The notes under the pieces were generated by a model. That model saw only the letters and a program-made list of their open reading frames with translations, was not told the origin of the DNA and did no database searches. The position numbers were made by a program, and so were the translations under genes. Below are positions 8,581 to 49,091 of a DNA stretch of 53,286 nt, one piece after another. Each line of letters starts with the position of its first letter. Position 1 is the first letter of the stretch. This stretch comes from Lutibacter sp. (GTDB lineage: Bacteria; Bacteroidota; Bacteroidia; Flavobacteriales; Flavobacteriaceae), in NCBI RefSeq assembly GCF_013139515.1, contig NZ_WTAR01000056.1:1-53286 (forward strand), written 5' to 3'.

Positions 8581-8710
8581 AGGTTACACGTATTTTTTAG
8601 TTAGTTTTATTTTTTAAAAATCATATAGGCGATTGCGCTATTGATTTTTGAATAATTCAAATTCAAGAGGGTTTGAATTGCAATTTAAATTTGTTTAGTT
8701 GCTACAATAA

Positions 8711-14000: not shown

Positions 14001-14423
14001 AAACAATCCTTTCATGGCATTCATAGCTCTTTCTTCTGTTAAAACTAATTTATTTGAGTTTTCTTCTGCAAGGGTTAATTTAGAAATTTCTAAGGGCGTT
14101 AAATCAAAATATTTTAGGCTATCTTGATATGAAATTGTTTTACCGTTAGGCCAGGGTTTAATTCCATTTCTTACATCTAAAGCGTTCCAATACTTTTTTT
14201 CCCAACTATCATCACCTGTTAAAACATACGTTCTGCAATTCCGCGTTAAATTATTAGACGTCTTTCGTAATTTTGATGCGATGGCATACGACTCCATTTT
14301 TATTTTATTATACTTTTTAACATTTGCTTTATTTTTAAACATTAAAAGGCTAAGTCCACTTAATACAATTAATAAAACTATTAATATAATATGGATAATT
14401 GTAAAGGTTCTTTTTAAATTCAT
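11025..14423 (-). CDS. Membrane-bound hybrid histidine kinase, four PAS domains and C-terminal receiver
   Basis: The protein has 1132 residues. Membrane helix 1 (about 9-28), a periplasmic segment of about 170 residues and helix 2 (about 200-226) form the sensor. A short coiled coil and four PAS domains follow (about 255-365, 370-490, 500-615, 625-740), the last two being clear duplicates. HisKA has the phospho-acceptor in NNMSHEIRTPMNG (H774), then the HATPase_c domain (KDTGIGIS, GLGLGLSIAKEN). The receiver has the acceptor aspartate in LMDLKMP (D1059) and the lysine in ISKPI. It is the last gene of three paralogous kinases in one direction. The only one with membrane helices, it may be the signal entry point. 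No output protein is encoded beside it. Confidence 0.93.
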   Translation of the reverse strand: MNLKRTFTIIHIILIVLLIVLSGLSLLMFKNKANVKKYNKIKMESYAIASKLRKTSNNLTRNCRTYVLTGDDSWEKKYWNALDVRNGIKPWPNGKTISYQDSLKYFDLTPLEISKLTLAEENSNKLVLTEERAMNAMKGLFKDSIGNFSIQGAPNPVLARTILFDDNYLEGKSKVLIPIEEFFEVFNQRMENQFNKYDKLSYLLLGAINILIFLIISISTVSYIIIKNKIIIQLEELKIAKENAEEIAKENKKLSVAVEQSTNTVVITDTKGNIEYINPKFTVRTGYSSEEVIGKSQRILKSGTQTKEYYANMWKTIKAGNTWKGEFHNKAKDGTFFWEHLTITPIKDTSGKIINYLGIKEDITALKESEQRLHTLINASPDIILFQDGAGRWAESNEANLKLFELTTIDYKGKNNIELAEEAVFYKEALLACKASDEIAWQKKSISHLEEKIPTPSGTDIILDVIKIPLFNKDNSRKGLVIMGRDITERKHTQKVLKESENNFKTAQKIAKIGSFNIDLITQFATVSDTFNTITGFGTKEVSLTNWRKILHPEDLENNIKVLQNCIKNHEKFDLEYRIITKETQELKWIHGLGEIIYNEGKPINFIGTLQDITERKQQELLLKESETNLIKAQEIAKIGSFNLDLRTQLAETSLSFDTITGFSENDVKTLAVWRAIIHPDDAGKDKYLLEKVVKTGKKIYNREYRILTNNTQELKWIHSVGEVTYENGEPRNFTGTIQDITERKTIEKELIASKQKAEESNRLKTEFLNNMSHEIRTPMNGILGFSGMLAEKDIDNDKRTYFVKIIQNSGKQLLRVIDDIIEISRLGTKQINVITEEVCLNDLFLELFSVFDFKAKENKTPLYLKKGLSDKESTVFIDKSKLNKILSNLLENALKFTNNGFIEFGYELQKNNIKIYVKDTGIGISKSEHQQIFDRFSQAEKELSRKVGGLGLGLSIAKENAELLDGEIFVESKKGEGATFHVVIPYKPTHSLAAAIIETNKKKYTILITEDEEVNYLYLETILVDILNLDVHILHAKNGIEAIDICKSNSEIHLILMDLKMPILNGFEATKKIKKLYPNLPIIAQTAYSTEQEKESAILAGCNDFISKPIDKEMVLNLIEKYLLKSRKVTT

Positions 14424-14443
14424 TTTTAGGGTAATTAATATTG

Positions 14444-14469
14444 CTTGTTAAGTTGTTTGTATTAACAAG
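14444..14469 (-). other. Small hairpin in the 47-base spacer between two kinase genes
   Basis: CTTGTTAA (14444-14451) and TTAACAAG (14462-14469) are perfect 8-base inverted arms around a 10-base loop. There is no T tract after it on the minus strand. It could tune mRNA stability or shield the ribosome site of the next gene, but the stem is AT-rich and weak. Confidence 0.4.
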
Positions 14470-14470
14470 T

Positions 14471-17400
14471 TTATTTCAGTAAAAAAATTTCAATAATAGC
14501 AAATAAAGCATCTTTATCAATAGGTTTTGAAATAAAATAATTACAACCGGCTTCAATTGCTTTTTCTTTATCTTCAACCGTTGAATATGCTGTTTGGGCA
14601 ATTATAGGTATGTTAGGTAGAAATTTACGTATTTGACGCGTGGCTTTAAACCCATTTAAAATAGGCATTTTTAAATCCATTAAAATTAAATCTATATTCG
14701 TGTTGGTTTTACAAAAATTAATAGCTTCTCTTCCATCTTTTACATGAATAATAGTACAGTTTAATTTTAAAACATCTACTAAAATAGTTTCTAAATACAT
14801 GTAATTTACCTCTTCATCTTCAGCTATTAAAATGGTGTGTTTAATAGTGTTTTCTTCTTCTATGTCTATGTATATAGGATTAAATGGTAAGGTTACAAAA
14901 AATGTAGAGCCGTTCATCATTTCGCTTTTAACAGCAATTTTTCCACCTAATAATTCGGTATTTTCTTTTGCTATTGATAAACCAAGTCCTAAACCTCCAA
15001 CTTTTTTTGAAAGGTCTTTTTCTGCTTGTTCAAACCTTTTAAATATGAGTTCATGTTTTTCAGGTTTTATACCAATCCCTGTATCTTTTACAAATATTTC
15101 TACTTGTTTTTGTTCGTTTTCATTTATTATGTAATACCCAAACTCAACAATACCATTATTTGTAAATTTTAAGGAATTGTCTAATAAATTGCTTAGTGCT
15201 TTTTTTAATTTTGTTTTATCTGTTATAAAAGTACTTTGCTTATCTGATAGTTCTTTTTTAAGGTATAATGGTGTTTTATTTTCTTTTGCTCTTACATCAA
15301 AAACTGAAAATAATTCTAATAAAACATCATTTAAACAAACCTCTTCATTTTTTACTTTAACTTGTTTTGTTCCAAGTCTAGAGATTTCTATAATATCATC
15401 AATAATATGTAACAATTGGTTTCCACTACTTTGAATAATGTTTACAAAATTGTTTCTTTTTATTGGGTCTAAATCTGGCTCATTTAACATTTCTGAAAAA
15501 CCTAAAATACCGTTCATAGGTGTTCTAATTTCATGAGACATATTATTTAAAAATTCTGTTTTTAAACGGTCACTTTCTTCAGCTGCTTCTTTGGCTATTT
15601 GTAATTCACTATTTTTAGTAATTAGTTCTTGTTCAATTTTCTTTTGCAATGTAATATTTTGAGATACCGTTAAAATATGCGATTCATTATTATAATTAAA
15701 AACTTTTAAAGACATTATTGTCGTTAAAATTTCACCACTTTTTATTCTAATTTGTGATTCAAAATAAGGAATAGCACCATGTTTTTTTAATTCACCGGCT
15801 ATGTATTCTCTATCTTTATAGTTTACCCATAGGTCTAAATCTTTAGATGTTTTTCCTATAATTTCTTCGCGTGTATAACCAATTATATTTGTAAACCCTT
15901 CATTAATGTCGGCATATTTACCATCTGATAAACGAGTAATTGTAATTGGCTCAATATGAGAATCGTAAATAGCTCGAAAATACATTTCACTTTTTTCAGC
16001 TGCTATTTTAGAATTTTGAAGGTCTTTCTCTGTACTTTTTAGTGCTGTAATATCAATAATGGAAGCAATATTTTTCCCTTTATCTCCAATCATAGTAGAT
16101 TTTACCATTACTTTAAGAACTTTACCATTGGCTTTAGTAAACTCTGTTTCGTAAATAAAGTTATTTCCCCCTGAAACTATTGATATTAATTCTTTTTTTA
16201 ATGAATTGATTGCTACTTTATTGTTTGTTTTTCTAACATGAGTTATCAGTTCTTCTTTGGTTGTTACCCCTATTAATTCTAATGTTTTTTTATTTACGTT
16301 TTCTACTTTAATTTTTGAAATACATTCATTCAAAAAAGTACGATTTTCATTTAAATATATTTCTATATCTGTAGTTTCTAATTTCTTTTTATTCAATAAT
16401 TCTATAGCTTCTGAAAAATCTTGTTCCCAAATGGAGACAGGACTTAGTTCAAATAAGTTTTTAAATCTACTTTCGTTTTCAGATAACTCTTTGCCTAATA
16501 ATACCAATTCTTCATTTTGAGCTTCTAATACTTTATATGCATTTTTTTGTACAGATATGTCTGTTACCATAGCAAACGAACCTATTCTTTCTTGCTCTTT
16601 ATTAAATAGTGGTGATGTTTTAAATAAACAAGGAATTTTATTCCCGTTCTTTTGTGTTAATTCAATTTCATAGGTAGATGACACCCCTAAATCTCTCTCT
16701 TTCAATTGTTGTTTAAAAATTTGTTCATTTTCTTTATCAACAAACTCAAAAATAGAATTCCCTATAATTTCCTCTTCTTCACACCCTAAAATTTTACACA
16801 TTTCAGGGTTTACTTCTAATGTAATTGTGTGTATGTTAATTATCCAAAAACCTTCATTAGCGGTTTTTAAAATTGTAGTTAGGGCTTTTTCACTTTCTTT
16901 AATTGTTTCATACGCTATCGTAAGTTTTTGTTCATCCTCTTTACGTTTGGTAATGTCTTCTTTTACTGCTAAAAAGTTAACTATTTTTCCTTCGCTATTT
17001 TTTATAGGGGTTATGGTAGCTTGTTCCCAAAATATAGTACCACATTTAGATTTATTTTGAAATTCACCAGACCAACTATTACCACTTTTAATGGTTTTCC
17101 ACATGTTCGTATAATACTCCTTTGGTTGATTTCCTGAATTTATAACTCGAGGGTTATTTCCTCGTGCTTCCGCAGCAGAAAACTTAGTAAGTTCTGTAAA
17201 TTTAGGATTTGTATATTCTATATTTCCTTCGGTATCCGTAATAACAATAGTATTTGCGCTTTGTTCAACTGCTGCATATAATTTTCGTGTTTCTGCTTCT
17301 AATTTTTTTCGCTTCGTAATGTCTCTTATGGCCGAAACTCTTAACGTATTATCTTTATCGCTATCTATTTCTCTGGCTTCAATTTCTATAGGAAAAATAG

Positions 17401-18916
17401 TACCGTCTTTTCTTATTCCTTCAATTTCATAAGGTATTGTGTACCTTTTAGTAATACTTTTAGAAAGTTGTTTGTGGTACTTTTTAGGGAAAAGGAGGTT
17501 AACTATATTTTTTCCTGTTAATTCATTGCTTTTATAACCAAACATTTTTAAAAACGAACGGTTAATATCCATTACTACTCCATTATCATGTATTAAAATT
17601 CCTTCAAAAGTAAGATTAGATAATTTCTTAAACTTTTCTTCACTTTTTTTAAGTGTTTTTTCTAGTTCTTTTTGTATTGTAATATCTTTAAATGCTGATA
17701 TACGTACAGCTTTCCCTTTATAATTTGACTTTTTACCTTGTATTACCGCAGGAAATGTTGTTCCGTCTTTTCGTAAAGCAGTTATTTCGTAAGAGCTATT
17801 ATTGTTAGATAAAATATTATTCATTATCAACTCACGGTCTTCTGGAACAATTATATTTGTAGCTTCCATTCCAAGAATCTCCTTATTTGTGTAACCAAAT
17901 AATTTTTGAGCTGCTTTATTTTGCATGATTCCAATACCTTTTTCTGATAAAAAAACGGCTTCAAAAGAAGCTTCAGAAAGTGCTTTATAACGCTCTTCCA
18001 GTTCTTTTTGTGCTGTAATGTCTAAAATTGTACCCAAAGCATGTATAGGTTCTCCTTTGGTATTGTGCTCTACAATACCTTTTCCTAATAGGTGTTTTTC
18101 TTTTCCTGATTTAAATAATAACTTATATTCAATTTTATATTCTTTTCCACTTCTAAAAGATTTTAAATATGCTTTATCTACCTTTTCCCTATCATTTGGA
18201 TGAATTAACTCCATAAAAACAGCTTCAGAAGCTTCAACCTCTTGTGGTTTTAAGTTAAAAATTTTGTAAATCTCATCAGACCATGTTAATTTATTCGTAC
18301 TAATATTTAGTTCCCAATGGCCAAGCTTTGCTATTTTTTGTGCTTCTGTTAGTTTTGCTGTTTTTTGCTGAATTTTTATGTTTAAAAGTTCTAATTCTCT
18401 GGTTTGAAGTGTATATTCTTTCTTGTAAAGCCTCTTTTCTAAAACTTTCTCAACCTTTAAGGCAATTATTTGTAGTACAATTTTTATCTCTTCTACATTT
18501 TTTAGTTGCTTATTATCTAACAACGCTATTAACCCTATTGGAACCCCTGTAGAAGACCATAAAGGAATACCAATATAACTTTCAATATTCATTTGCACCA
18601 ATAACTCATCTTTTGGAAATAGCGATTGTATGTTGGTTGGATATATGCAAACATCCTTATTTATTACATTTTCACAAGGTGTATCTACTAATTCATACGA
18701 AAAATTAGGGACTACACCTTCTTTATTACATACAACTACCGTTTCTGTAATGCTTGGGGTTTTCTCTAAATATTGATTGATTAATACATATTCTATATCA
18801 AATGATTTTATTAAAAACATTGCTATTTTTTGAAGAAACTCATCTGCTGAGATATTATAGCCTTGTGTTCTAAGAAGTTCTATTGCTTGTTCAATGTATT
18901 TTAACTGTTTATTCAT
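14471..18916 (-). CDS. Soluble hybrid histidine kinase: GAF, seven PAS, HisKA-HATPase, receiver
   Basis: At 1481 residues this is the largest protein in the window. The N-terminal ~170 residues look like a GAF domain (ESYIGIPLWSSTGVPIGLIALLD). Seven PAS modules can be counted by their starts, for example AQKIAKLGHWELNI, ALSEASFEAVFLS, LSNLTFEGILIHD, VEQSANTIVITDTEG, ILKTANEGFWIIN, LFELSPVSIWEQD and IYDSHIEPITITR. The kinase core has the acceptor in MSHEIRTPMNG (H1128) and ATP-lid glycines; the receiver has LMDLKMP (D1414). No membrane helix is seen, so it senses in the cytoplasm. Its ATG overlaps the stop of the upstream kinase by 8 bases, which implies translational coupling and co-expression. 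Confidence 0.92.
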   Translation of the reverse strand: MNKQLKYIEQAIELLRTQGYNISADEFLQKIAMFLIKSFDIEYVLINQYLEKTPSITETVVVCNKEGVVPNFSYELVDTPCENVINKDVCIYPTNIQSLFPKDELLVQMNIESYIGIPLWSSTGVPIGLIALLDNKQLKNVEEIKIVLQIIALKVEKVLEKRLYKKEYTLQTRELELLNIKIQQKTAKLTEAQKIAKLGHWELNISTNKLTWSDEIYKIFNLKPQEVEASEAVFMELIHPNDREKVDKAYLKSFRSGKEYKIEYKLLFKSGKEKHLLGKGIVEHNTKGEPIHALGTILDITAQKELEERYKALSEASFEAVFLSEKGIGIMQNKAAQKLFGYTNKEILGMEATNIIVPEDRELIMNNILSNNNSSYEITALRKDGTTFPAVIQGKKSNYKGKAVRISAFKDITIQKELEKTLKKSEEKFKKLSNLTFEGILIHDNGVVMDINRSFLKMFGYKSNELTGKNIVNLLFPKKYHKQLSKSITKRYTIPYEIEGIRKDGTIFPIEIEAREIDSDKDNTLRVSAIRDITKRKKLEAETRKLYAAVEQSANTIVITDTEGNIEYTNPKFTELTKFSAAEARGNNPRVINSGNQPKEYYTNMWKTIKSGNSWSGEFQNKSKCGTIFWEQATITPIKNSEGKIVNFLAVKEDITKRKEDEQKLTIAYETIKESEKALTTILKTANEGFWIINIHTITLEVNPEMCKILGCEEEEIIGNSIFEFVDKENEQIFKQQLKERDLGVSSTYEIELTQKNGNKIPCLFKTSPLFNKEQERIGSFAMVTDISVQKNAYKVLEAQNEELVLLGKELSENESRFKNLFELSPVSIWEQDFSEAIELLNKKKLETTDIEIYLNENRTFLNECISKIKVENVNKKTLELIGVTTKEELITHVRKTNNKVAINSLKKELISIVSGGNNFIYETEFTKANGKVLKVMVKSTMIGDKGKNIASIIDITALKSTEKDLQNSKIAAEKSEMYFRAIYDSHIEPITITRLSDGKYADINEGFTNIIGYTREEIIGKTSKDLDLWVNYKDREYIAGELKKHGAIPYFESQIRIKSGEILTTIMSLKVFNYNNESHILTVSQNITLQKKIEQELITKNSELQIAKEAAEESDRLKTEFLNNMSHEIRTPMNGILGFSEMLNEPDLDPIKRNNFVNIIQSSGNQLLHIIDDIIEISRLGTKQVKVKNEEVCLNDVLLELFSVFDVRAKENKTPLYLKKELSDKQSTFITDKTKLKKALSNLLDNSLKFTNNGIVEFGYYIINENEQKQVEIFVKDTGIGIKPEKHELIFKRFEQAEKDLSKKVGGLGLGLSIAKENTELLGGKIAVKSEMMNGSTFFVTLPFNPIYIDIEEENTIKHTILIAEDEEVNYMYLETILVDVLKLNCTIIHVKDGREAINFCKTNTNIDLILMDLKMPILNGFKATRQIRKFLPNIPIIAQTAYSTVEDKEKAIEAGCNYFISKPIDKDALFAIIEIFLLK

Positions 18917-21900
18917 TTTGAGGTAAAAACTTGTTTAATAATTTAAAGAGCTCGTCTTTACTAATTGGTTTTGAAATAAAATCTGTGCAACCAGCAGCAA
19001 TGGCTTTTTGTTGTTCTTGTTTTGTAGAATAGGCTGTTTGCGCTATTATAGGAATAGTTGGTCGTACTTTTTTTATTTCTGTTGCAGCTTTATAACCGCT
19101 TAATACAGGCATTTTTAAATCCATAAGTATAAAATCTATGATTGTATTACTTTTACAAATATCAATAGCTTCTTGTCCATTTTTTGCATGAATAAGGTTG
19201 CAATTTAAGTTAAAAACATCTTTTATTAACGTATGAAGGTACAAATAATTTACTTCTTCATCTTCAGCTATTAAAATGGTTATTTTATTTTTTAAGTTTT
19301 CTGTTTCAATAGTTGTAAACACTGGCTTGTAAGGAATATTTACAAAAAAGGTTGTTCCTTTTCTTTTTACAGATTCAACAGTTATTTCACCACCTAATAA
19401 TAGCGTGTTTTCTTTAGCTATAGACAATCCTAAACCGAGGCCTTCTACTTTTTTTGAAGCCTCTTTACCCGATTGAGAAAAGCGTTCAAAAATCATTTTT
19501 TGATCTTTTTCTGCAATTCCTACGCCTGTATCTTTTACATAAATTACTAATTGTTTTTTATCGCCTTCTGGTTTTAAATGATACCCAAATGTTATATTTC
19601 CTACGTTTGTAAATTTTAACGCATTTTCTAATAAATTACTTAGTATTTTATTTAGTTTGGTTCTGTCAGTTATAATGGTACTTTGTTTGTCTGTTAAATG
19701 TTTTTCAACATATAAAGGTGTTTTATTTTCTTTGGCTTTTGGCTCAAAAATTGAAAATAATTCTAATAATAAATCATTAATGTTTACGTGTTCTTCTATT
19801 ACTTTTACCTTTTTTGTTCCTAGTCTTGAAATTTCTAAAATATCATCTATTATTTGTAATAATTGATGACCGCTATTTTTAATTAATTTTACATAAAACT
19901 CACGTTTTTCTTTTGTAACATCTTGGTTTATTAACAATTCTGAAAATCCTAAAATACCGTTCATTGGTGTTCTAATTTCATGAGACATGTTGTTAATAAA
20001 CTCTGTTTTTAAAAGGTCGCTTTCTTCTGCTTTTTCTTTCGCTTTTCTTAATTCTGTAATGTCACTAAATGAAATAATAACTTTTGTTTTTTCAATAATA
20101 ACAAGTTTTAAAGTCACGTAAATTAGTTCGCCATCACTTCTAACAAACTCTGTATTTCTTTCAAATGTTTTATCTTTTGTAAGTAGTATTAGTAATTCTT
20201 CTTTCAACGTTTCAAAAGAATTTGAATTAAAACTCATACTTAAATTAGCTATCAGTTTTTCTTTAGTTTTAATGCCTAATAACTTTAACGCGCTCTCATT
20301 AACATTTAACACTTTTATTTTTGAAGCGCACTTATAAACAAAATCAGGATTTTCATCTAAATAAAGCTTTAGGTTATCTACTTCTTTAGATTTTTTATGT
20401 AACAATTTTAATACTTCTGAAATATCTTCTTCCCAAAGTGAAACTGGATTATTATCAAATAGGGTTTTAAATCGTTTTTCACTTTCAATAAGTTTTTTAT
20501 TCTTCGTTTTAATTTCAGAATTAACTGTTTTTAAACTTTGTTGCTGTTGTAACAGTACTTTCTCTGCATTTTTACGATCTGTAATATCTTTAATGGTTCC
20601 AATCATTTCAATTGGAGTTCCTTCTTTATTAAATTTTAATTTACCAAGCACGTGCATCCAGCGTACTTCTTTATTGCTAATTCTTTTAATACGGTATTCT
20701 TTATCAAAAAACTCATGGTTTATAAGTACGTTTGTTGATAGGTACTTAAACATTTCTTTTTCATCTTTAGAATGAATGATTCCTAACCATCCTGAGATGT
20801 CTTTTTTATAGTTCTCATCAATTCCAAGTATGTTATTTAAAACAGGAGAACTTGTCCAAAGGCCAGAAGAAATATTTAAAACATACGATCCTAACTGAGC
20901 TATTTCTTGAGTTTCTTTTAATAAAAACTCATTGTCTTTTATTTTTTTTTCAGAAAGATTACGTGTTGTAATATCTCTAACAGTTCCTAAAATACTTTTT
21001 TTATCTTTAATTAATAAGTTTTTCCCTATAACTTCTGCAATAAACGTAGTGCCATTTTTTCTAACAAGTTCTACAAAAACAGGTTCTCCTTCTTTAACTG
21101 TTTTTGTTTTTTTAAATGTAGATTTGTCTTTTTTATCTGCAGTAATATCAAAAACCGTCATTTTTAGTAACTCTTTTTCTGTATAACCAACCATATTACA
21201 AAATTCAGGATTTACATAGGTGTAATTTCCTTTTAAATCGGCTACACTTATTCCTTCTGAAGATTGACTCGTAAATGCTTTAAAGTTAACTTCACTTTCA
21301 ATTAATTTAGCCGCTGTTTTTTTTCGTTCTGTAATATCAATTATCAATGCTAAAAAATGAAGTTTACCATGTAGCTTAAATTTACTTAAATTTACTTCAA
21401 CAGGGTATATGGTCTTGTTTTTTCGTTGATGGGTTGCTTCAAATTGTAATTTATCAACTTTTCCGGTTGTTAAAGGCTTAATTAATGATTTAAACTTTTT
21501 TGAAGTAAAATTTGACGATATATCTGGGGGAGATATTTTTAGCAATTCTTCATAGGTATATCCTAAATTATGTATGCTTCCTCTGTTTATATATGTGAAT
21601 TTTGAGTTTTCTCCATCCAAAATATAGACTTCGTTAATACTATTATTTAGAGCTATGTTTAATTTTTTTAAATCTTCTTCAGTTTCTATACTTTCAGTAA
21701 TATCTAAAATTATTCCTTCATAATGTGTTACTTCTCCATTTTCATTTCTTTGAATTTGTGTTTGGTCTTTTACCCAAATTATTTTTCCTTTTTTGGTTAT
21801 TATTCTGTAAGGTTTATGTGTAAATGATATCTCGTTATTTTCACTAAAAAACTTCACTTCTTTTGAAACCACATCAACATCATCAGGGTGAATTAATTGA

Positions 21901-22487
21901 TTGTAATTTATTTTGTTTGTTAGAAATTCGTCAGCTGAATAACCAAAAATTAATTTTACATTGTTAGATACATACTCAACTGGCCAATTATTTTCATTTT
22001 TCCATAAAAAAACTACCGATGGGCTTCTTTCAATAATTTCTGTTGCTTGGGAAAGTTTTTCCTCTACTTCTTTTTGTTCTGTAATATCTTCACCTATACT
22101 TAAGTGTCCGGTAATAATATCTTTATTATCTCTTATTATTGCATTGTGCCACCTGATAATTCTTTCGTCACCATCTTTAGTTAAGATACGGTTTTCATTA
22201 CTTTTATTTCCTTCTATTTCACCTTGAAGTAAGTTTTTAGAAATTGGACTAACAATTAATTTTGTTTTATCGGGAATGAAATTATCAAACCAATTTTTAC
22301 CAATAATTTCTTTTTCGCTATAACCTAAAACTTCACAGGCTTTGGGGTTCACATGTGTAACATTACCATTAGTGCCTATTTCAACAAGTAAGTTTTGTTT
22401 AAATTCTAATGCCGTTTTAAAACAATCTTGGTTTTTTAAATTTTCTAATTCTTTTTCTAATTCTTGGTAAGTGGGTTTTGTATTCAT
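18909..22487 (-). CDS. Soluble hybrid histidine kinase: six PAS, HisKA-HATPase, receiver
   Basis: The protein has 1192 residues and is the first gene of the kinase run. Six PAS modules are visible, with starts such as LLVEIGTNGNVTHVNP, IIERSPSVVFLWKN, ALNNSINEVYILDG, FTSQSSEGISVADL, TQEIAQLGSYVLNI and LFDNNPVSLWEED. HisKA has MSHEIRTPMNG (H836), HATPase_c has KDTGVGIA and GLGLGLSIAKEN, and the receiver has LMDLKMPVLSG (D1123). No membrane helices are seen. Catalytic residues look complete. The kinase and receiver parts align closely with the two downstream kinases, while the PAS arrays differ. The promoter should lie within 22488-22627, but I could not place it. Confidence 0.92.
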   Translation of the reverse strand: MNTKPTYQELEKELENLKNQDCFKTALEFKQNLLVEIGTNGNVTHVNPKACEVLGYSEKEIIGKNWFDNFIPDKTKLIVSPISKNLLQGEIEGNKSNENRILTKDGDERIIRWHNAIIRDNKDIITGHLSIGEDITEQKEVEEKLSQATEIIERSPSVVFLWKNENNWPVEYVSNNVKLIFGYSADEFLTNKINYNQLIHPDDVDVVSKEVKFFSENNEISFTHKPYRIITKKGKIIWVKDQTQIQRNENGEVTHYEGIILDITESIETEEDLKKLNIALNNSINEVYILDGENSKFTYINRGSIHNLGYTYEELLKISPPDISSNFTSKKFKSLIKPLTTGKVDKLQFEATHQRKNKTIYPVEVNLSKFKLHGKLHFLALIIDITERKKTAAKLIESEVNFKAFTSQSSEGISVADLKGNYTYVNPEFCNMVGYTEKELLKMTVFDITADKKDKSTFKKTKTVKEGEPVFVELVRKNGTTFIAEVIGKNLLIKDKKSILGTVRDITTRNLSEKKIKDNEFLLKETQEIAQLGSYVLNISSGLWTSSPVLNNILGIDENYKKDISGWLGIIHSKDEKEMFKYLSTNVLINHEFFDKEYRIKRISNKEVRWMHVLGKLKFNKEGTPIEMIGTIKDITDRKNAEKVLLQQQQSLKTVNSEIKTKNKKLIESEKRFKTLFDNNPVSLWEEDISEVLKLLHKKSKEVDNLKLYLDENPDFVYKCASKIKVLNVNESALKLLGIKTKEKLIANLSMSFNSNSFETLKEELLILLTKDKTFERNTEFVRSDGELIYVTLKLVIIEKTKVIISFSDITELRKAKEKAEESDLLKTEFINNMSHEIRTPMNGILGFSELLINQDVTKEKREFYVKLIKNSGHQLLQIIDDILEISRLGTKKVKVIEEHVNINDLLLELFSIFEPKAKENKTPLYVEKHLTDKQSTIITDRTKLNKILSNLLENALKFTNVGNITFGYHLKPEGDKKQLVIYVKDTGVGIAEKDQKMIFERFSQSGKEASKKVEGLGLGLSIAKENTLLLGGEITVESVKRKGTTFFVNIPYKPVFTTIETENLKNKITILIAEDEEVNYLYLHTLIKDVFNLNCNLIHAKNGQEAIDICKSNTIIDFILMDLKMPVLSGYKAATEIKKVRPTIPIIAQTAYSTKQEQQKAIAAGCTDFISKPISKDELFKLLNKFLPQNE

Positions 22488-29566: not shown

Positions 29567-30574
29567 TTATTCTTCACTGTTAAGAGCTTCTTTAATTTTT
29601 CCCTCTAATTCATCAGCTAATTCTGGATTGTCTTTTATCAATGCTTTTACTGCATCACGACCTTGACCTAATTTTGTTTCGCCATAACTAAACCATGAAC
29701 CGCTTTTTTTAACAATACCAAATTCAACACCTAAATCTAATATTTCACCTGTTTTAGAAATTCCTAAACCGTACATAATATCAAATTCAGCAATAGTAAA
29801 CGGTGGTGCTACTTTGTTTTTTACCACTTTTACTTTTGTACTGTTTCCTATTACTTTATCTCCATCTTTAATTTGAGTTCGTCTTCTAATATCTAAACGA
29901 ACTGATGCGTAAAACTTTAATGCGTTACCACCTGTTGTTGTTTCAGGATTACCGAACATAACACCAATTTTTTCACGTAATTGGTTGATAAATATTACTG
30001 TACAATTTGTTTTATGAATTGTACCTGTTAATTTACGAAGTGCTTGAGACATTAAACGTGCGTGTAATCCCATTTTAGAATCTCCCATTTCACCTTCTAA
30101 TTCACTTTTAGGCGTCAATGCTGCAACCGAGTCAATTACAATAATATCAATTGCTCCAGAGCTAATTAAATTATCTGCAATTTCTAATGCTTGCTCACCG
30201 TGATCTGGTTGTGAAATTATTAAATTATCTACATCAATTCCTAAATTTTGAGCGTAAAACCTATCAAAAGCGTGTTCTGCATCAATAAAAGCTGCAATAC
30301 CACCTGCTTTTTGAGCTTCAGCAATTGCATGTAAAGTTAATGTGGTTTTACCTGATGATTCTGGACCATAAATTTCAATTACTCTACCTCTTGGATAACC
30401 TCCAACTCCTAAAGCAATATCTAACCCTAATGACCCTGATGAAATAGCATCAATATCATTAATAGCAACATCACCCATTTTCATAACTGTTCCTTTTCCG
30501 TAAGCTTTATCTAATTTATCTAATGTAAGTTGTAATGCTTTTAATTTTGCTGCTTTTTCTTTATCGTCTGCCAT
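29567..30574 (-). CDS. recA: Recombinase RecA
   Basis: The protein has 335 residues, normal length without intein. Walker A is GPESSGKTT (70-78), Walker [23 protein letters not shown], and the L2 region is [21 protein letters not shown]. It forms filaments on single-stranded DNA, drives strand exchange and stimulates LexA-type self-cleavage. No LexA box was recognised upstream; the 30575-30672 region is AT-rich with no clear operator. Confidence 0.98.
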
Positions 30575-33593: not shown

Positions 33594-34031
33594 TTAACAA
33601 CATTTAGTTGGTATTTTTTCAACACGTGTTTGATGTCTTCCTCCTTCAAACTTAGTATTTAAAAATAGTTCTACAAAACCTAACGCTTGTTGTAAGGATA
33701 CAAAACGAGCAGGAATACTTAAAATATTTGCATTGTTATGTAAACGTGCTAATTCAACCAATTCATTATTCCAACACAACGCAGCTCTAATACCTTGATG
33801 TTTATTCGCTGTAATTTGAGCACCATTACCACTTCCACAAATAATAATACCTAAACTAGCTTTATTGTTTTCTACTGCATCAGCAACTGGATGAATAGCG
33901 TCAGGATAATCCATACTATTATTAGAATCTGTACCAAAATTTAAAATTTTAATACCTTTGTTTTCTAACAGTTTTATAATTTTGAATTTATATTCAGTTC
34001 CGGCGTGATCATTACCAATTGCAATTGTCAT
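33594..34031 (-). CDS. rpiB: Ribose-5-phosphate isomerase B
   Basis: The protein has 145 residues from the preferred start. The first residues TIAIGNDHAGTEYKFKI carry the substrate-binding DHAG motif; IICGSGNGAQITANKHQGIRAALCW holds the catalytic cysteine and anion hole, and HNNANILSIPARF is the C-terminal signature. It interconverts ribose-5-P and ribulose-5-P. The frame is open to an ATG at 34064, but that would overlap the -7 element at 34062-34069 and add residues foreign to the family, so the ATG at 34031 is chosen. It heads the rpiB-CDF-elaA-nudix operon, leading away from the proposed origin. Confidence 0.95.
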   Translation of the reverse strand: MTIAIGNDHAGTEYKFKIIKLLENKGIKILNFGTDSNNSMDYPDAIHPVADAVENNKASLGIIICGSGNGAQITANKHQGIRAALCWNNELVELARLHNNANILSIPARFVSLQQALGFVELFLNTKFEGGRHQTRVEKIPTKCC

Positions 34032-34061
34032 AAATAGTGTTTTAATTATATTTTTAAAGTA

Positions 34062-34069
34062 CAAAAGTA
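34062..34069 (-). promoter_or_regulatory. -7 promoter element of the rpiB operon
   Basis: The minus strand reads TACTTTTG, an exact TAnnTTTG match, 30 bases before the ATG at 34031. It overlaps the longer possible reading frame and so supports the shorter start. Confidence 0.55.
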
Positions 34070-34610
34070 CAAATTCACAGTTATTAACAGTAAAAAAAGT
34101 AATTGTTAATAGTAATTTTTAAAAACTTGATTTACAATTACTTTACGTTAAATTAAGATTGTGGATAAATAATGACTTAAAAAAGATAACTAATATTTGG
34201 TATGTAACAATTATTTCATAATGCAAAAATCACTATTTAATACCCAAATTTATTTATTATTATTTCAAAAGAAGTTATCAACTAGTTTTATACCTGTTAT
34301 AAACATTTAGTACTTGTAAACTTATTCAAAAAAACTGTTAACTAACGTTTTTAGTAGATTGTTTATAACCTATATAATTTGATTGATTTTGAAGCTTTTA
34401 AAAAATTATAAGTTGTTTATATCTATTAATAAGTGATAAATAAAAATATATAATCACTTATTTATTGTACATATTAACACGCTATAATAGACATCATTCT
34501 TTTTTTAAAATTTAAATAAAACTTACTATTATTATTATAGTTGTTAATAACCTTTGTAGCTTAATTTTAAAATTAAAAATACTATTTTTACACTATATAA
34601 TTTAATTGTT
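34065..34610. other. Candidate chromosomal replication origin (oriC)
   Basis: These 546 bases hold no gene and are extremely AT-rich. They contain one exact DnaA-box complement, TGTGGATAA (34160-34168), and many close variants: TTATTAACA (34081-34089), TTATCAACT (34275-34283), TTATAAACA (34297-34305), TGTTTATAA (34360-34368), TGTTTATAT (34414-34422) and TGTTAATAA (34542-34550). An inverted repeat, AATAAGTGAT/ATCACTTATT (34428-34437, 34453-34462), lies in an AT-only stretch that could unwind. Genes diverge on both sides: minus to the left, plus to the right. Two parS-like sites and mnmG lie 13-15 kb away. All fit an origin; dnaA itself is not in the window. Confidence 0.7.
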
Positions 34611-35245
34611 ATGAAAAAAATACTACATTATTTATTTTTTATTATACCATTAATTACATTTTCACAAGTTCAAATAGGAGTTGATATAAATGGTGAAGCA
34701 GCTGGAGATAATTTAGGACATAGTGTTTCTTTATCTAGTGATGGAAGTATTCTAGCAATTACTGCACCTTATAATGATGAAACAGGAAGTGATTCAGGTC
34801 ATGAATTTATCAAAATATATAAAGAAACTGGACTCAGGTAGGTATTAATATTAATGGAGAAGTAGGAGGTGATTTATTAGGTAATAGTGTTTATTTATTT
34901 AGTAACGGAAGTATTGTAGCTATTGGTGCACCAACAAATAATGGAAATGGTGCTGATTCAGGTCATGCACGAGTTTATGATTTATCATCTGAAATTTTAG
35001 GTATTTCAGATGAGTTTGTAGTTAAAAATTTTACTATATATCCTAATCCTGTTAGTACAAATTTATACATTCAATTAACAAGTGAATTAAAATTTATTTC
35101 AGTAAATATTTTTGATTATTTAGGTGAAAATGTATTAAAAAGTAAAAAAACTATGTTAGATGTTTCAACTTTATCTAAAGGTGTATATTTTTTAAAAGTT
35201 GAAACTAATAAAGGAATAGGTATTAAAAAAGTTATTATAAACTAA
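34611..35245 (+). pseudogene. T9SS-exported repeat protein, broken by a one-base frameshift
   Basis: The frame from ATG 34611 has a signal peptide (MKKILHYLFFIIPLITFS) and one FG-GAP-like repeat (QVGVDINGEAAGDNLGHS... and ...APYNDETGSDSGHEFIKIYKET), then shifts and stops at about 34839. The next frame continues with a second repeat (TQVGININGEVGGD...APTNNGNGADSGHARVYDL) and a type A T9SS sorting domain (FTIYPNPVSTNLYIQL ... LSKGVYFLKVETNKG) to TAA 35243-35245. Restoring one T at about 34830, to give ETWTQVG, joins the parts into a 211-codon protein. Only two repeats remain where relatives have several, so shrinkage may have come before the frameshift. Confidence 0.82.
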
Positions 35246-35487: not shown

Positions 35488-36402
35488 TTAAGGAACTATA
35501 AAATTAAGAGATTTTGGCAATATAGATATTGTAAAATTACCTGTACCTATAAGCTCTCCATCTGCTTGAATGTATGTTTTAGTAGTATCTAATACTTTAA
35601 TTTTTATTTTTGAAGTTTTATAAGTACTTACTAATTTATGATTGGTAATAGTACCATTAAATAACCCTTTTATATTACCTAAAATTGTTAGTAGCTTTAT
35701 TTTTTTAATATAAGAAATATCAAAAAGTGCATCTGTTGGATTTGAATTTTTAGTTAATTGCATTCCACCTCCAGAATATTTACACAAACCAATTAAAAAA
35801 AGTAATGTTTTACCTTTTAAAACTTTGTTATTAAAAGTAATTTCTAATAATGGTTTTTTATAACTTTTTAAACTTACCAAAGCACCAATTAAATAAGCTA
35901 ACACACCAAACTTTTTATATTTCTTTACATTTTTTACAACAAATCCATCAAAACCAATACCAGCTAAATTATTAAAATACACAGTTTTATTAGTTGAAGA
36001 AATAATAATTTTTCCAATATCTTGTTTAATTGTACTTGAAGTTTTAAGTACTTGAATAGCTTTTTTATAGTTTTGTGGAATAGTGTAATTTTTTATCCAG
36101 TCGTTTCCAGTTCCAATTGCAATTATTCCTACTTTTATTTCTGAAAGATGTATAGAATTTAAACTTAAAATACCATTTACAATAGCATGTAATGTACCAT
36201 CACCACCAACACAAATAAATTTTTTAAATCCTTTTTTTATAGCTTTTTCAACTAATTTTATAGCGTGATTTTCATACTCTGTAAAAGTAACTTCAAACTT
36301 AAAATTCTCATTTTTTAATTCATTGTAAATATTGGGCCATTTTTTTTTAGCAGCGCCATTTCCTGCAACCGGATTTACAATTACAAACCATTTATTAATC
36401 AT
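35488..36402 (-). CDS. Diacylglycerol kinase-family lipid kinase (DgkB/YegS-like)
   Basis: The protein has 304 residues. It has VNPVAGNGAAKK (about 9-20), the catalytic CVGGDGTLHAIVNGI (about 64-78) and AIGTGNDW, the three DAGK_cat signatures. The C-terminal half has NLAGIGFDGFVVKNVKK and QADGELIGTGNF, matching the family's second domain. It phosphorylates diacylglycerol or a related lipid using ATP, at the cytoplasmic face of the membrane. It is divergent from rnr, with 104 bases between the start codons. Confidence 0.92.
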   Translation of the reverse strand: MINKWFVIVNPVAGNGAAKKKWPNIYNELKNENFKFEVTFTEYENHAIKLVEKAIKKGFKKFICVGGDGTLHAIVNGILSLNSIHLSEIKVGIIAIGTGNDWIKNYTIPQNYKKAIQVLKTSSTIKQDIGKIIISSTNKTVYFNNLAGIGFDGFVVKNVKKYKKFGVLAYLIGALVSLKSYKKPLLEITFNNKVLKGKTLLFLIGLCKYSGGGMQLTKNSNPTDALFDISYIKKIKLLTILGNIKGLFNGTITNHKLVSTYKTSKIKIKVLDTTKTYIQADGELIGTGNFTISILPKSLNFIVP

Positions 36403-36506: not shown

Positions 36507-38717
36507 ATGTCAAGTAAAAAAAAGATATATAAAAAGAAAGGGAATATTCTAAAAGATTTAACTCGAAAAATATTACAAATATTAAATCAATCACCAGATA
36601 ATAGTTTTAATTACAAACAAATTTCGTCAAAATTATCGTTGTCTGATGCAAATGCAAGAAATCAAATTATTCAAAAATTAGAAGAATTAAAAGGTCAACA
36701 AAAAGTTGAAGAAGTTGAACGTGGAAAATTTAAAATACTACCATTAGATAAGTATTATATTGGAACAATTGATGCAACAACTAACGGAAATGGGTATTTT
36801 ATTTGTGATGATTTAGAACATGATATTTACATTCCTGCACGTAATTTAAATAAAGCTTTAGATAAGGATACCGTTAAAATTTATTTATACAATCGTAGAA
36901 ACAGTAAAAAGCAAGAAGGTGATGTTGTTGAAGTTATAAAACGTTTTAAAACTGAATTTGTAGGTGTTTTGCAATTAAACAGAAATTTTGGATTTGTAAT
37001 TCCAGATGATTCAAAAATGTATGCTGATATTTTTATTCCTCAAAATAAATTAAAAGGTGCCGAAGATGGTGTAAAAGTTTTAGTAGAAATGACCAATTGG
37101 CCAGATAAATCTAAAAATCCTTTTGGAAAAATAAAAGAAATTTTAGGAATGCCAGGCGACCATGATACTGAAATTCATTCTATCTTATTAGAATATGGTT
37201 TACCTTATAAATTTCCTGAAAATGTAGAAGCAGAAGCTGGTAAAATTCCATTAGAAATTACTGAAGCTGAGATTGCAAAACGTAGAGATATGCGTAAAGA
37301 TTTAACGTTTACCATTGATCCAAAAGATGCAAAAGATTTTGATGATGCGTTGTCTTTTGAAATATTAGAAAATGGAAATTATGAAATAGGAATTCATATT
37401 GCAGATGTTTCACATTATGTGCAAGAAAAAACAATTTTAGAAGAAGAAGCATATAACAGAGCAACTTCAGTTTATTTAGTTGATAGAGTAGTACCAATGC
37501 TTCCTGAAGTATTATCAAACGGTGTCTGTTCATTAAGACCAAATGAAGAAAAGTTAACTTTTTCAGCAGTTTTTGAAATGAATGAAAAAGCACAAATTGT
37601 AAATGAATGGTTTGGGAGAACAATTACATATTCCGATAAGAGATTTGCTTATGAAGAAGCTCAGGAAATAATTGAAACTAAAGGAACTACTATTTCTTCT
37701 GAAATTTCAATAACCGGTGAAGAATATACGGTTGAACCTAAAATAGTTACAGCAACTTTAAAATTAGATGAACTCGCAAAAAAACTTCGTAAAAAACGTT
37801 TACAGCAAGGCGCTATAACTTTTGATAGAGTAGAGGTTAAATTTAATTTAGATAAAAATGCAGAACCTTTAGGAGTATTTTTTAAAGAGTCTAAAGATGC
37901 TAATAAGTTAATTGAAGAATTTATGTTACTTGCTAACCGTAAAGTAGCTGAATTTATTGGTAGAAGTAAAGGTGTAGCTAGTAAAAATACATTTATATAT
38001 CGTGTGCACGATGAACCTAATTTAGATAAATTAGAAGGTCTTCAAGCAATTGTAAGTAAGTTTGGTTATAAAAATAAGATAGATACAACTAGTAAAAAAA
38101 CGACTTCAACATCATTAAATCAGTTATTAAATGATGTGCATGGAAAAGGAGAAGCCAATATGATTGAAACTTTAGCTATTCGCTCTATGAGTAAAGCTGA
38201 ATATACAACACAAAATATTGGTCATTATGGGTTAGCTTTTGATTATTATAGTCATTTTACTTCACCAATTAGAAGATATCCAGATGTAATGACACATAGA
38301 TTATTGCAACATTATTTAGATGGAGGAAAATCACCAAAAGCTGAGATTTATGAAGAAAAATGTAAACATTCTTCAGAAATGGAATACTTAGCTTCAAGAG
38401 CTGAACGTGATTCTATTAAATATATGCAGGTAAAATACATGGATAATCATAAAGATCAAGAATTTGAAGGTGTGATATCTGGTGTTACTGAATGGGGAAT
38501 TTATGTTGAAATTATTGAAAATAAATGTGAAGGAATGTGTAGAATTCGTGAAATTAAAGATGATTATTATATTTACGATGAAAAGCAATATGCATTGGTT
38601 GGGCAATCAACAAAAAACATGTATCAATTAGGAGATCACGTTTTAATAAAAGTAAAACATACCGATTTAGAAAGAAAACATTTAGATTTCACCTTATTAG
38701 ATAAGATTAATATATAA
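36507..38717 (+). CDS. rnr: Ribonuclease R
   Basis: The protein has 736 residues, typical of flavobacterial RNase R. An N-terminal winged-helix part (FNYKQISSKLSLSDANARNQII) and two cold-shock-like OB folds come first. The RNB catalytic domain starts with IDPKDAKDFDDALSF (270-284), holding the four metal-binding aspartates, and contains HYGLAFDYYSHFTSPIRRYPD. A C-terminal S1 domain (FEGVISGVTEWGIYVEI) follows; there is no long basic tail. It is a processive 3'-5' exoribonuclease able to degrade structured RNA. It is the first conserved gene to the right of the proposed origin. Confidence 0.97.
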   Translation: MSSKKKIYKKKGNILKDLTRKILQILNQSPDNSFNYKQISSKLSLSDANARNQIIQKLEELKGQQKVEEVERGKFKILPLDKYYIGTIDATTNGNGYFICDDLEHDIYIPARNLNKALDKDTVKIYLYNRRNSKKQEGDVVEVIKRFKTEFVGVLQLNRNFGFVIPDDSKMYADIFIPQNKLKGAEDGVKVLVEMTNWPDKSKNPFGKIKEILGMPGDHDTEIHSILLEYGLPYKFPENVEAEAGKIPLEITEAEIAKRRDMRKDLTFTIDPKDAKDFDDALSFEILENGNYEIGIHIADVSHYVQEKTILEEEAYNRATSVYLVDRVVPMLPEVLSNGVCSLRPNEEKLTFSAVFEMNEKAQIVNEWFGRTITYSDKRFAYEEAQEIIETKGTTISSEISITGEEYTVEPKIVTATLKLDELAKKLRKKRLQQGAITFDRVEVKFNLDKNAEPLGVFFKESKDANKLIEEFMLLANRKVAEFIGRSKGVASKNTFIYRVHDEPNLDKLEGLQAIVSKFGYKNKIDTTSKKTTSTSLNQLLNDVHGKGEANMIETLAIRSMSKAEYTTQNIGHYGLAFDYYSHFTSPIRRYPDVMTHRLLQHYLDGGKSPKAEIYEEKCKHSSEMEYLASRAERDSIKYMQVKYMDNHKDQEFEGVISGVTEWGIYVEIIENKCEGMCRIREIKDDYYIYDEKQYALVGQSTKNMYQLGDHVLIKVKHTDLERKHLDFTLLDKINI

Positions 38718-47219: not shown

Positions 47220-49091
47220 ATGTTTAATACAGTTTACGATGTTATAGTTGTTGGAGGTGGTCATGCAGGAAGCGAGGCGGCGGCATCAAGTGCTAATTTG
47301 GGCGCGCACACACTTTTAATTACAATGAATTTGCAAAATATTGCGCAAATGAGTTGTAATCCAGCAATGGGCGGAATTGCAAAAGGACAAATTGTAAGAG
47401 AGATTGATGCTTTGGGCGGTTATAGTGCAATAGTGACAGATAAAACTGCGATTCAATTTAAAATGTTGAATAAATCTAAAGGTCCAGCAATGTGGAGTCC
47501 AAGAGCACAAAGTGACCGTATGCGTTTTGCTGAATGTTGGAGAACTATGCTAGAGCAAATTAATAATTTAGATTTTTATCAAGATAATGTTACGGGTTTA
47601 ATTTTTGATGGAAATACAATTGTAGGTGTTAAAACAAGTTTAGGGATTGAAATAAAAGCTAAGAAAGTTATTATAACTGCAGGAACTTTTTTAAACGGAT
47701 TAATTCATATTGGTGATAAAACTTTTGGTGGAGGTAGAGCAGGAGAAAGTGCTTCAATTGGAATTACAGAAGATCTTGTAAAAGTTGGTTTTGAATCTGG
47801 AAGAATGAAAACAGGAACTCCTCCAAGAGTGGATGCTCGTTCGTTAGATTTTTCAAAAATGATAGAACAACCTGGTGATGATAACCCTGAAAAATTCTCT
47901 TATTCAACCACTACAAAATCATTACAAAATCAACGTTCTTGTTATATGAGTTATACTTCGAAAGAAGTACATGATTTATTGAGAACAGGTTTTGATAGGT
48001 CGCCAATGTTTAATGGTAGAATACAAAGTATTGGTCCAAGATATTGTCCATCTATTGAAGATAAAATTGACAGATTTGCAACCAAAGAACGTCATCAAAT
48101 TTTTGTAGAACCTGAAGGTTGGGATACTGTTGAAATTTATGTAAATGGGTTTTCAACTTCTTTACCTGAAGATGTTCAAGATAAAGCCTTGAGAAAAGTA
48201 GCTGGTTTTGAAAATGTGAAATTTCTCAGGTTTGGTTATGCTATTGAATACGATTATTTTCCACCTACACAATTAACACATACGCTAGAAACAAAGCTGA
48301 TTAAAAATTTATATTTCGCTGGTCAAATTAATGGGACTACTGGTTATGAAGAAGCGGCAGCTCAAGGATTAATGGCGGGAATAAATGCTGCTTTAAGTAT
48401 TCAGAATAAAGAGCCATTTATACTAAAAAGAAATGAAGCTTATATAGGTGTTTTAATAGATGACTTAATTACTAAAGGAACAGAAGAACCTTATAGAATG
48501 TTTACATCAAGAGCTGAATATAGAACTTTATTAAGGCAAGATAATGCTGATTTAAGGTTAACACCTTTAGGTTTTAAATTAGGTTTAGCTTCAAAAGAAA
48601 GAATGGATAGAGTGCAAGAAAAGCAACTTAAAACAGATTTGTTTGTTAAGTTTTTGATACAAACTAGTGTGAAACCTGAAGATATAAATCCTATTTTAGA
48701 AGAGAATAATACTGCTAAAATATCTCAATCTATGAAGTTATTTAAGATAGCTGCTAGACCACAATTAAACTTTGATGATGTACGAAAACTTAAAAGTGTT
48801 GAAGCATTTGTTCAAGAGAATTCTATTGATAGAGAAATTGTAGAACAGACAGAAATACATGTTAAATACGCTGGTTATATAGAGAAGGAAAAGAACCAAG
48901 CTGATAAATTAAACAGATTAGAAAACGTATCAATCCCTTCAAAGTTTGACTATACTAAAGTACAATCTTTATCTATTGAAGCTCGTCAAAAATTAACTAA
49001 AATACAACCAATAACTATATCACAAGCAAGTAGAATTAGTGGGGTTTCACCTAGCGATATTTCTGTTTTGTTGGTGTATATGGGAAGGTAA
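47220..49091 (+). CDS. mnmG: tRNA uridine 5-carboxymethylaminomethyl modification enzyme
   Basis: The protein has 623 residues, full length. The FAD-binding start is VIVVGGGHAGSEAA (about 8-21). SCNPAMGGIAKGQIVREIDALGG holds a catalytic cysteine region, GTFLNGLIHIG and RYCPSIEDKI are signatures, and GQINGTTGYEEAAAQG is the second FAD contact. With MnmE (not here) it installs cmnm5 on U34 of certain tRNAs. mnmG (gidA) lies next to the origin in many bacteria, and here it is bracketed by two parS-like palindromes. Confidence 0.98.
   Translation: MFNTVYDVIVVGGGHAGSEAAASSANLGAHTLLITMNLQNIAQMSCNPAMGGIAKGQIVREIDALGGYSAIVTDKTAIQFKMLNKSKGPAMWSPRAQSDRMRFAECWRTMLEQINNLDFYQDNVTGLIFDGNTIVGVKTSLGIEIKAKKVIITAGTFLNGLIHIGDKTFGGGRAGESASIGITEDLVKVGFESGRMKTGTPPRVDARSLDFSKMIEQPGDDNPEKFSYSTTTKSLQNQRSCYMSYTSKEVHDLLRTGFDRSPMFNGRIQSIGPRYCPSIEDKIDRFATKERHQIFVEPEGWDTVEIYVNGFSTSLPEDVQDKALRKVAGFENVKFLRFGYAIEYDYFPPTQLTHTLETKLIKNLYFAGQINGTTGYEEAAAQGLMAGINAALSIQNKEPFILKRNEAYIGVLIDDLITKGTEEPYRMFTSRAEYRTLLRQDNADLRLTPLGFKLGLASKERMDRVQEKQLKTDLFVKFLIQTSVKPEDINPILEENNTAKISQSMKLFKIAARPQLNFDDVRKLKSVEAFVQENSIDREIVEQTEIHVKYAGYIEKEKNQADKLNRLENVSIPSKFDYTKVQSLSIEARQKLTKIQPITISQASRISGVSPSDISVLLVYMGR

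Follow-up and report, generated by a model that had tools for sequence, protein, structure and literature searches.

The intergenic block at positions 34065-34555, to the right of rpiB, is very likely oriC, the origin of bidirectional chromosome replication in this Lutibacter. The window (the whole stretch of 53,286 bp analysed here) is contig C57 of a draft genome (2.83 Mb, 157 contigs, 90% complete); for that genome the assignment, which rests on synteny, local skew and conservation, very probably holds. An earlier note had placed a chromosomal origin between rpiB and rnr, and our analysis supports that reading: GC skew in congeners points to the same locus, the gap beside rpiB holds the densest cluster of DnaA boxes in the stretches sampled from them, and the boxes are conserved, four of them in at least 22 of 23 Lutibacter genomes and the fifth in 15 of 23. 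The features of the locus are given below; rows are those of an alignment of the rpiB gap from the 23 genomes, window included, and TTATNNACA is the DnaA-box core.

29567-30574: recA, left of the block
33594-34064, minus strand: rpiB (ribose/galactose isomerase; Pfam LacAB_rpiB, E 1.9e-55), left neighbour and lineage marker
34065-34555: conserved origin block, putative oriC, right of rpiB and alignable in 23 Lutibacter genomes
34081-34089, plus strand: DnaA box TTATTAACA; core in 15 of 23 rows, letters 1-8 conserved at 95-100% and the last letter at 68%
34104-34112, minus strand: box-like conserved word TGTTAATAG, kept as a spaced word in 21 of 23 rows; putative role
34160-34168, minus strand: perfect DnaA box TTATCCACA; core in 22 of 23 rows
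34275-34283, plus strand: weak DnaA-box-like site TTATCAACT, two mismatches; core in 3 of 23 rows
34297-34305, plus strand: DnaA box TTATAAACA, 22 of 23 rows
34360-34368, minus strand: DnaA box TTATAAACA, 23 of 23 rows
34428-34437 and 34453-34462: 10-bp inverted repeat (span 34428-34462)
34465-34484: 20 bp of high conservation holding a weak box, ATATTAACA, immediately before the AT-rich segment; putative role
34485-34541: candidate DNA-unwinding element, AT-rich across the alignment and bounded on the right by the invariant 34542 box
34542-34550, minus strand: DnaA box TTATTAACA, 23 of 23 rows, right edge of the block
34612-35230: degenerate gene pieces, between the origin block and the diacylglycerol-kinase-like gene
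35488-36402, minus strand: diacylglycerol-kinase-like gene (Pfam DAGK_cat, E 9.4e-29), between the block and rnr
36507-38717, plus strand: rnr (ribonuclease R; Pfam RNB, E 1.2e-106), right flank
47220-49091: mnmG, right of the block and 13 kb away

Region 34065-34610 (546 bp) has a GC content of 17.6% and contains no ORF of at least 100 amino acids, just as the earlier note, which called it gene-free and AT-rich, had described it. An RNA feature was considered and rejected, the window having no Rfam match at gathering score and no tRNA, and no plasmid relative of the block was found among 72,556 plasmid records. Single copy is a trait of an oriC, and in its own genome the block has one full match, the sole other match being 49 bp at 82%. 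The gap beside rpiB measures 1426 bp in the window, against 513-925 bp in 19 of 22 congener gaps. By eye, one frame of the degenerate pieces at 34612-35230 begins like a signal peptide and another ends like a sorting signal. Gene orientation, said earlier to flip at this place, does shift (18 minus and 6 plus to the left, 4 minus and 10 plus to the right, in a hand-picked gene list), with exceptions on both sides. Elsewhere in the window (11025-22487) lie three very large consecutive minus-strand ORFs; the two that were scanned for domains (1132 and 1192 amino acids) encode PAS-domain proteins resembling hybrid sensor kinases.

Conservation within the genus is concentrated on the boxes. For the alignment the window row was trimmed to 560 bp and three gaps longer than 1100 bp to 760 bp. 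At the window's five box columns TTATNNACA is found in 15, 22, 22, 23 and 23 of the 23 rows; mean identity to the window row is 98.7% over the five box cores, 76.8% over their two free letters (NN) and 69.0% over the remaining block. A spaced-word scan blind to DnaA (all 481 positions) recovered, at a cut-off of 22 or more conserved rows out of 23, four of the boxes (34160, 34297, 34360 and 34542) plus a single box-overlapping word; the 34081 box was absent from this set. Weaker sites may lie at other well-kept words (34104, 34128-34129 and 34476). Of the four best-kept boxes, three have the sequence TTATNAACA, and at the position of the perfect box about nine of ten rows carry TTATNCACA. The stretch at 34465-34484 has a mean identity of 87% to the window row, the joint highest of any 20-bp bin. 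Past about 34555 identity to the window drops, the conserved block stopping right after the 34542 box. This footprint over 23 genomes names candidate DnaA-binding sites in the Lutibacter lineage.

The AT-rich segment that precedes the 34542 box is the putative unwinding element. It includes an AT-only run of 22 bp (34500-34521), and on either side of it lie the pair of 60-bp windows that rank lowest in stability over the contig (34416-34475 and 34562-34621). The earlier description of an AT-only segment with a 10-base inverted repeat is right as to the repeat, but the arms contain G and C, which leaves the 15-base loop as the AT-only part. The other aligned Lutibacter rows do not, by eye, retain the repeat; it was therefore rejected as a functional part, and probably lies outside origin function. 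A DnaA-trio or BUS motif was looked for by eye and none was established; the (.A.)3+ pattern (rule from an excerpt of PMC8287927) is uninformative in DNA so AT-rich.

GC skew was sampled in two complete congeners, G012 (2,966,978 bp) and G019 (4,028,615 bp), as 20 stretches of 20 kb spread over each chromosome, one of them on the locus. Nine (G012) and ten (G019) extra stretches around the locus brought the totals to 29 and 30, or about 20% and 15% of the chromosome. To cancel out gene direction, third-position skew was computed for plus- and minus-strand ORFs separately. GC skew and third-position skew both change sign in the sampled stretches of each genome: negative values become positive near the rpiB gap, and positive values become negative at about 0.45-0.6 Mb in G012 and 0.8-1.0 Mb in G019. 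Several stretches near the origin have skew near zero or mixed in sign, so third-position skew alone locates the turn only to 0.1-0.2 Mb. The cumulative raw skew of a 200-kb run in G012 reaches its minimum at 1,925,773, 1.7 kb from rpiB (1,923,590-1,924,033), and that of a 240-kb run in G019 at 2,928,258, 18 kb from the gap (about 2,909,390-2,910,195). In G019 rnr is on the low-coordinate side and the locus runs opposite to the skew, an arrangement that an inversion about the origin would account for.

The earlier note had staked its proposal on the skew minimum and on there being no denser box cluster elsewhere. In the sampled stretches of both complete congeners the minimum is at or near the rpiB locus, and the rpiB gap is the densest cluster in the 580,000 bp (G012) and 599,979 bp (G019) covered, with 5 and 8 boxes against 3 and 4 in the next best. 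For the draft genome itself the skew was followed within the window, where the cumulative curve is lowest in the 32-34 kb bin. Across the gap the third-position skew of plus-strand ORFs goes from -0.02 to +0.22 and that of minus-strand ORFs from -0.06 to -0.02, the latter thus remaining slightly negative to the right (n=164).

The same arrangement recurs in related loci of the Flavobacteriaceae type. We assembled 103 loci (the window, 22 congener stretches and 80 related loci), of which 90 have both rpiB and rnr. The 13 excluded loci lacked one or the other in the available piece: in L052, L062 and L101 about 10 kb lies left of rnr and rpiB was unmatched, and in the other ten less than 4.5 kb lies left of rnr. 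The 90 rpiB gaps contain 400 boxes, against 64 expected under a first-order model and 116 for a reversed-pattern control; three are duplicates, and the 87 distinct gaps hold 384 boxes against about 62 expected. The rest of the loci (1.79 Mb) has no excess (799 boxes, 784 reversed). The gap has the densest cluster in 61 of the 83 loci that measure 15 kb or more and ties for it in 14; in the other 8 the densest cluster lies elsewhere, although in L085 and L109 it overlaps the gap edge. Two of the 90 gaps (L068 and L083) are boxless. The rpiB gaps of two Chryseobacterium gleum loci are 681 and 682 bp long, with 5 boxes. Skew was compared in 79 of the 87 distinct loci, those with short flanks being left out: raw skew rises from the left side of the gap to the right side in 76 and passes from minus to plus in 61, and pooled third-position skew rises from -0.063 to +0.061 for plus-strand ORFs and from -0.023 to +0.003 for minus-strand ORFs. 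One locus, that of Aureivirga marina (L051), has nine DnaA-box cores in a stretch of about 490 bp (8100-8590) that lies beyond rpiB, away from the usual gap, which has nine boxes as well; a bipartite origin is possible there.

Clusters of DnaA boxes also occur at sites that do not initiate replication: datA of E. coli is a DnaA-titration or regulatory site. The block could be a site of that type, or the promoter region of rpiB, controlled by DnaA, since it lies upstream of rpiB and boxes by themselves are no proof of initiation. We consider this very improbable. Both complete congeners have their skew turn at the block, to within 1.7 and 18 kb, and 76 of 79 related loci have higher skew on the right; moreover, a conserved block of 490 bp with an AT-rich end at an invariant box would seem to exceed a promoter.

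More improbable still is an origin beside mnmG, the place that Ori-Finder calls for Mariniflexile and Algorimicrobium. Passages of PMC11278836 and PMC12843772 name mnmG for oriC, although in the excerpts of PMC11278836 the text equates mnmG with oriC and a figure legend with ter (Mariniflexile litorale). The gene is present in the window at 47220-49091, and with 18 kb between the G019 minimum and the rpiB gap, skew alone cannot tell the gap from mnmG in that genome. Against an mnmG origin, TTATNNACA is absent from the window beyond 42924. In addition, 13 of the 90 pieces contain mnmG, at 6-12 kb to the right of the gap, although its absence from the others means little since the pieces end about 10 kb past rnr.

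In bacteria an origin beside dnaA is the common rule. An excerpt of PMC10225481 states it, and the records of both complete congeners begin at dnaA (bases 25-1419). A dnaA-linked origin is nevertheless extremely unlikely here: in both G012 and G019 the 20-kb sample that includes dnaA lies inside a positive arm, with third-position skew strongly positive on either strand, and the source genome's own dnaA contig (C16; 39,555 bp) has no cluster of more than two boxes. The dnaA-linked subtype of oriC, with dnaA adjacent, was not encountered at the rpiB gap. The earlier observation that dnaA is not adjacent is borne out, as dnaA is on a different contig from the block and, if the records are circular, is about 1.04 and 1.12 Mb from the gap in the complete congeners. 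Its corollary, that calling origins by dnaA position would miss this one, fits too, both records starting about 1 Mb from the skew turn. With dnaA elsewhere, the origin at rpiB and the initiator gene are unlinked.

The boxes beside rpiB might also be look-alikes thrown up by an AT-rich gap, as such DNA gives two-mismatch matches easily. One exact box complement had been reported, and there is one (34160-34168, minus strand). The at least six variants with one or two mismatches reported beside it proved to be six, in both orientations, but all have two mismatches and none has one: 34081, 34275, 34297 and 34322 on the plus strand, and 34360 and 34542 on the minus strand. The exact box alone is weak evidence, because the draft genome has 12 such boxes and a match with at most one mismatch turns up in 116 of 1000 shuffles of the gap. 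Matches with at most two mismatches number 7 in the 546 bp against 2.18 per shuffle, a total reached by 9 of 1000 shuffles. The core TTATNNACA occurs five times in this non-coding region against 0.63 expected, and five were reached by only 2 of 5000 dinucleotide shuffles. The whole window has 26 cores against 26.0 expected and hence no excess; clustering alone is what is unusual about its boxes, and the gap beside rpiB is the sole place in the window with more than three within 550 bp.

A second cluster in the same genome, on contig C45 (L235, about 15764-16168), lends the look-alike explanation some weight. It has four boxes in one orientation, one of them perfect; 2 of 200 shuffles reach the same, and it is the best cluster around the 11 other exact boxes of the genome, the scan having covered the surroundings of exact boxes. 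In five relatives about 78-162 kb separates the neighbouring gene from rnr, a distance that suggested a datA-like site; this candidate was rejected, since the matching stretch is boxless in six relatives. The rpiB gap, in contrast, has conserved box columns, and together with the shuffles these leave chance next to no probability.

In G038, from another family, rpiB and rnr are 110 kb apart, four boxes lie within 424 bp upstream of rpiB, and the rnr stretch has no comparable cluster; the sign of the third-position skew differs from the 1.45-Mb sample to the 1.65-Mb one, and that of the raw skew already from 1.34 to 1.45 Mb. Just upstream of rpiB, G049 has four boxes and G053 three (skew is weak in both), and G046 has two. 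In G047 no box was found within 900 bp upstream of rpiB, though the skew turns somewhere in the interval from the sample that carries dnaA (1-20 kb) to the one that carries rpiB (112-132 kb). Beyond the genus, skew at rpiB was followed in four complete genomes.

Counts were also made over 900 bp upstream of rpiB in the order and the class, with 57 of 59 order genomes and 58 of 60 class genomes matched and the source genome included. The best-matching 30 loci of each set were used, so that the sample leans to closer relatives, and the totals leave out L285 (too short), L245, L258 and L294. In the 28 order loci there are 69 boxes against 10.8 expected (28 with the reversed pattern, 14 downstream); without the window's family the order total is 33 against about 6.9 expected, in 20 loci. 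The 26 class loci have 30 boxes against 8.0 expected (10 reversed, 5 downstream), but 18 of them have fewer than two, so that either the link to rpiB is not universal or the box differs there. According to passages of PMC2768785, Blattabacterium, of the same order, lacks both dnaA and boxes and has its skew turn in dapB. We give an even chance to the proposal that a position upstream of rpiB is the ancestral place of oriC in the class Bacteroidia, in which case rpiB, not dnaA, would be the right anchor for numbering and origin calling in this class.

From what is generally known of bacterial initiation, DnaA-ATP would bind the boxes of the Lutibacter block and oligomerise from them, and the AT-rich segment at about 34485-34541, or the weak stretches beside it, would be opened. 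Two helicases would then be loaded, with one fork proceeding towards rpiB and recA and the other towards rnr and mnmG. A gene marker for the origin would set right the direction of replication, methods that estimate growth rate from coverage, and origin-finding tools, even in fragmented genomes.

Among the matches listed in a literature search, no paper named the rpiB gap as an origin, though DoriC may list such sites, and none joined rnr, rpiB and the origin of replication. An experiment on the origin in this lineage was likewise absent from the papers listed. In excerpts of PMC3691203 and PMC2650404, 'rpIB' is a typing gene in one and rpiB is named only in metabolism in the other. Passages of PMC4755523, citing DoriC, describe oriC of Bacteroidetes as commonly far from dnaA, and an excerpt of PMC13342612 cautions that certain DoriC entries do not mark the true origin. 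The Ori-Finder oriC of Elizabethkingia meningoseptica, as given in parts of PMC8994065, spans 649 bp with three near-boxes and two AT-rich elements, and dnaA is about 1.87 Mb away along the record.

The origins of E. coli and B. subtilis are intergenic and AT-rich, with a cluster of DnaA boxes in both orientations, an AT-rich segment and a skew minimum. The Lutibacter block is likewise intergenic and AT-rich, with boxes pointing both ways, an AT-rich segment and a skew minimum. It differs in lying away from dnaA, in that no DnaA-trio was established, and in that its conserved boxes mostly read TTATNAACA, not TTATCCACA. Parallels exist in the literature on the phylum: the oriC of Prevotella intermedia (passages of PMC4755523) shares multiple DnaA boxes at the skew turn with dnaA elsewhere, and that of E. 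meningoseptica (excerpts of PMC8994065) is similar in size, near-boxes, AT-rich parts and distance from dnaA. As these excerpts already report origins distant from dnaA, the kind of thing is known, and the origin in the rpiB gap is very probably ordinary in kind and useful for the gene that anchors it.
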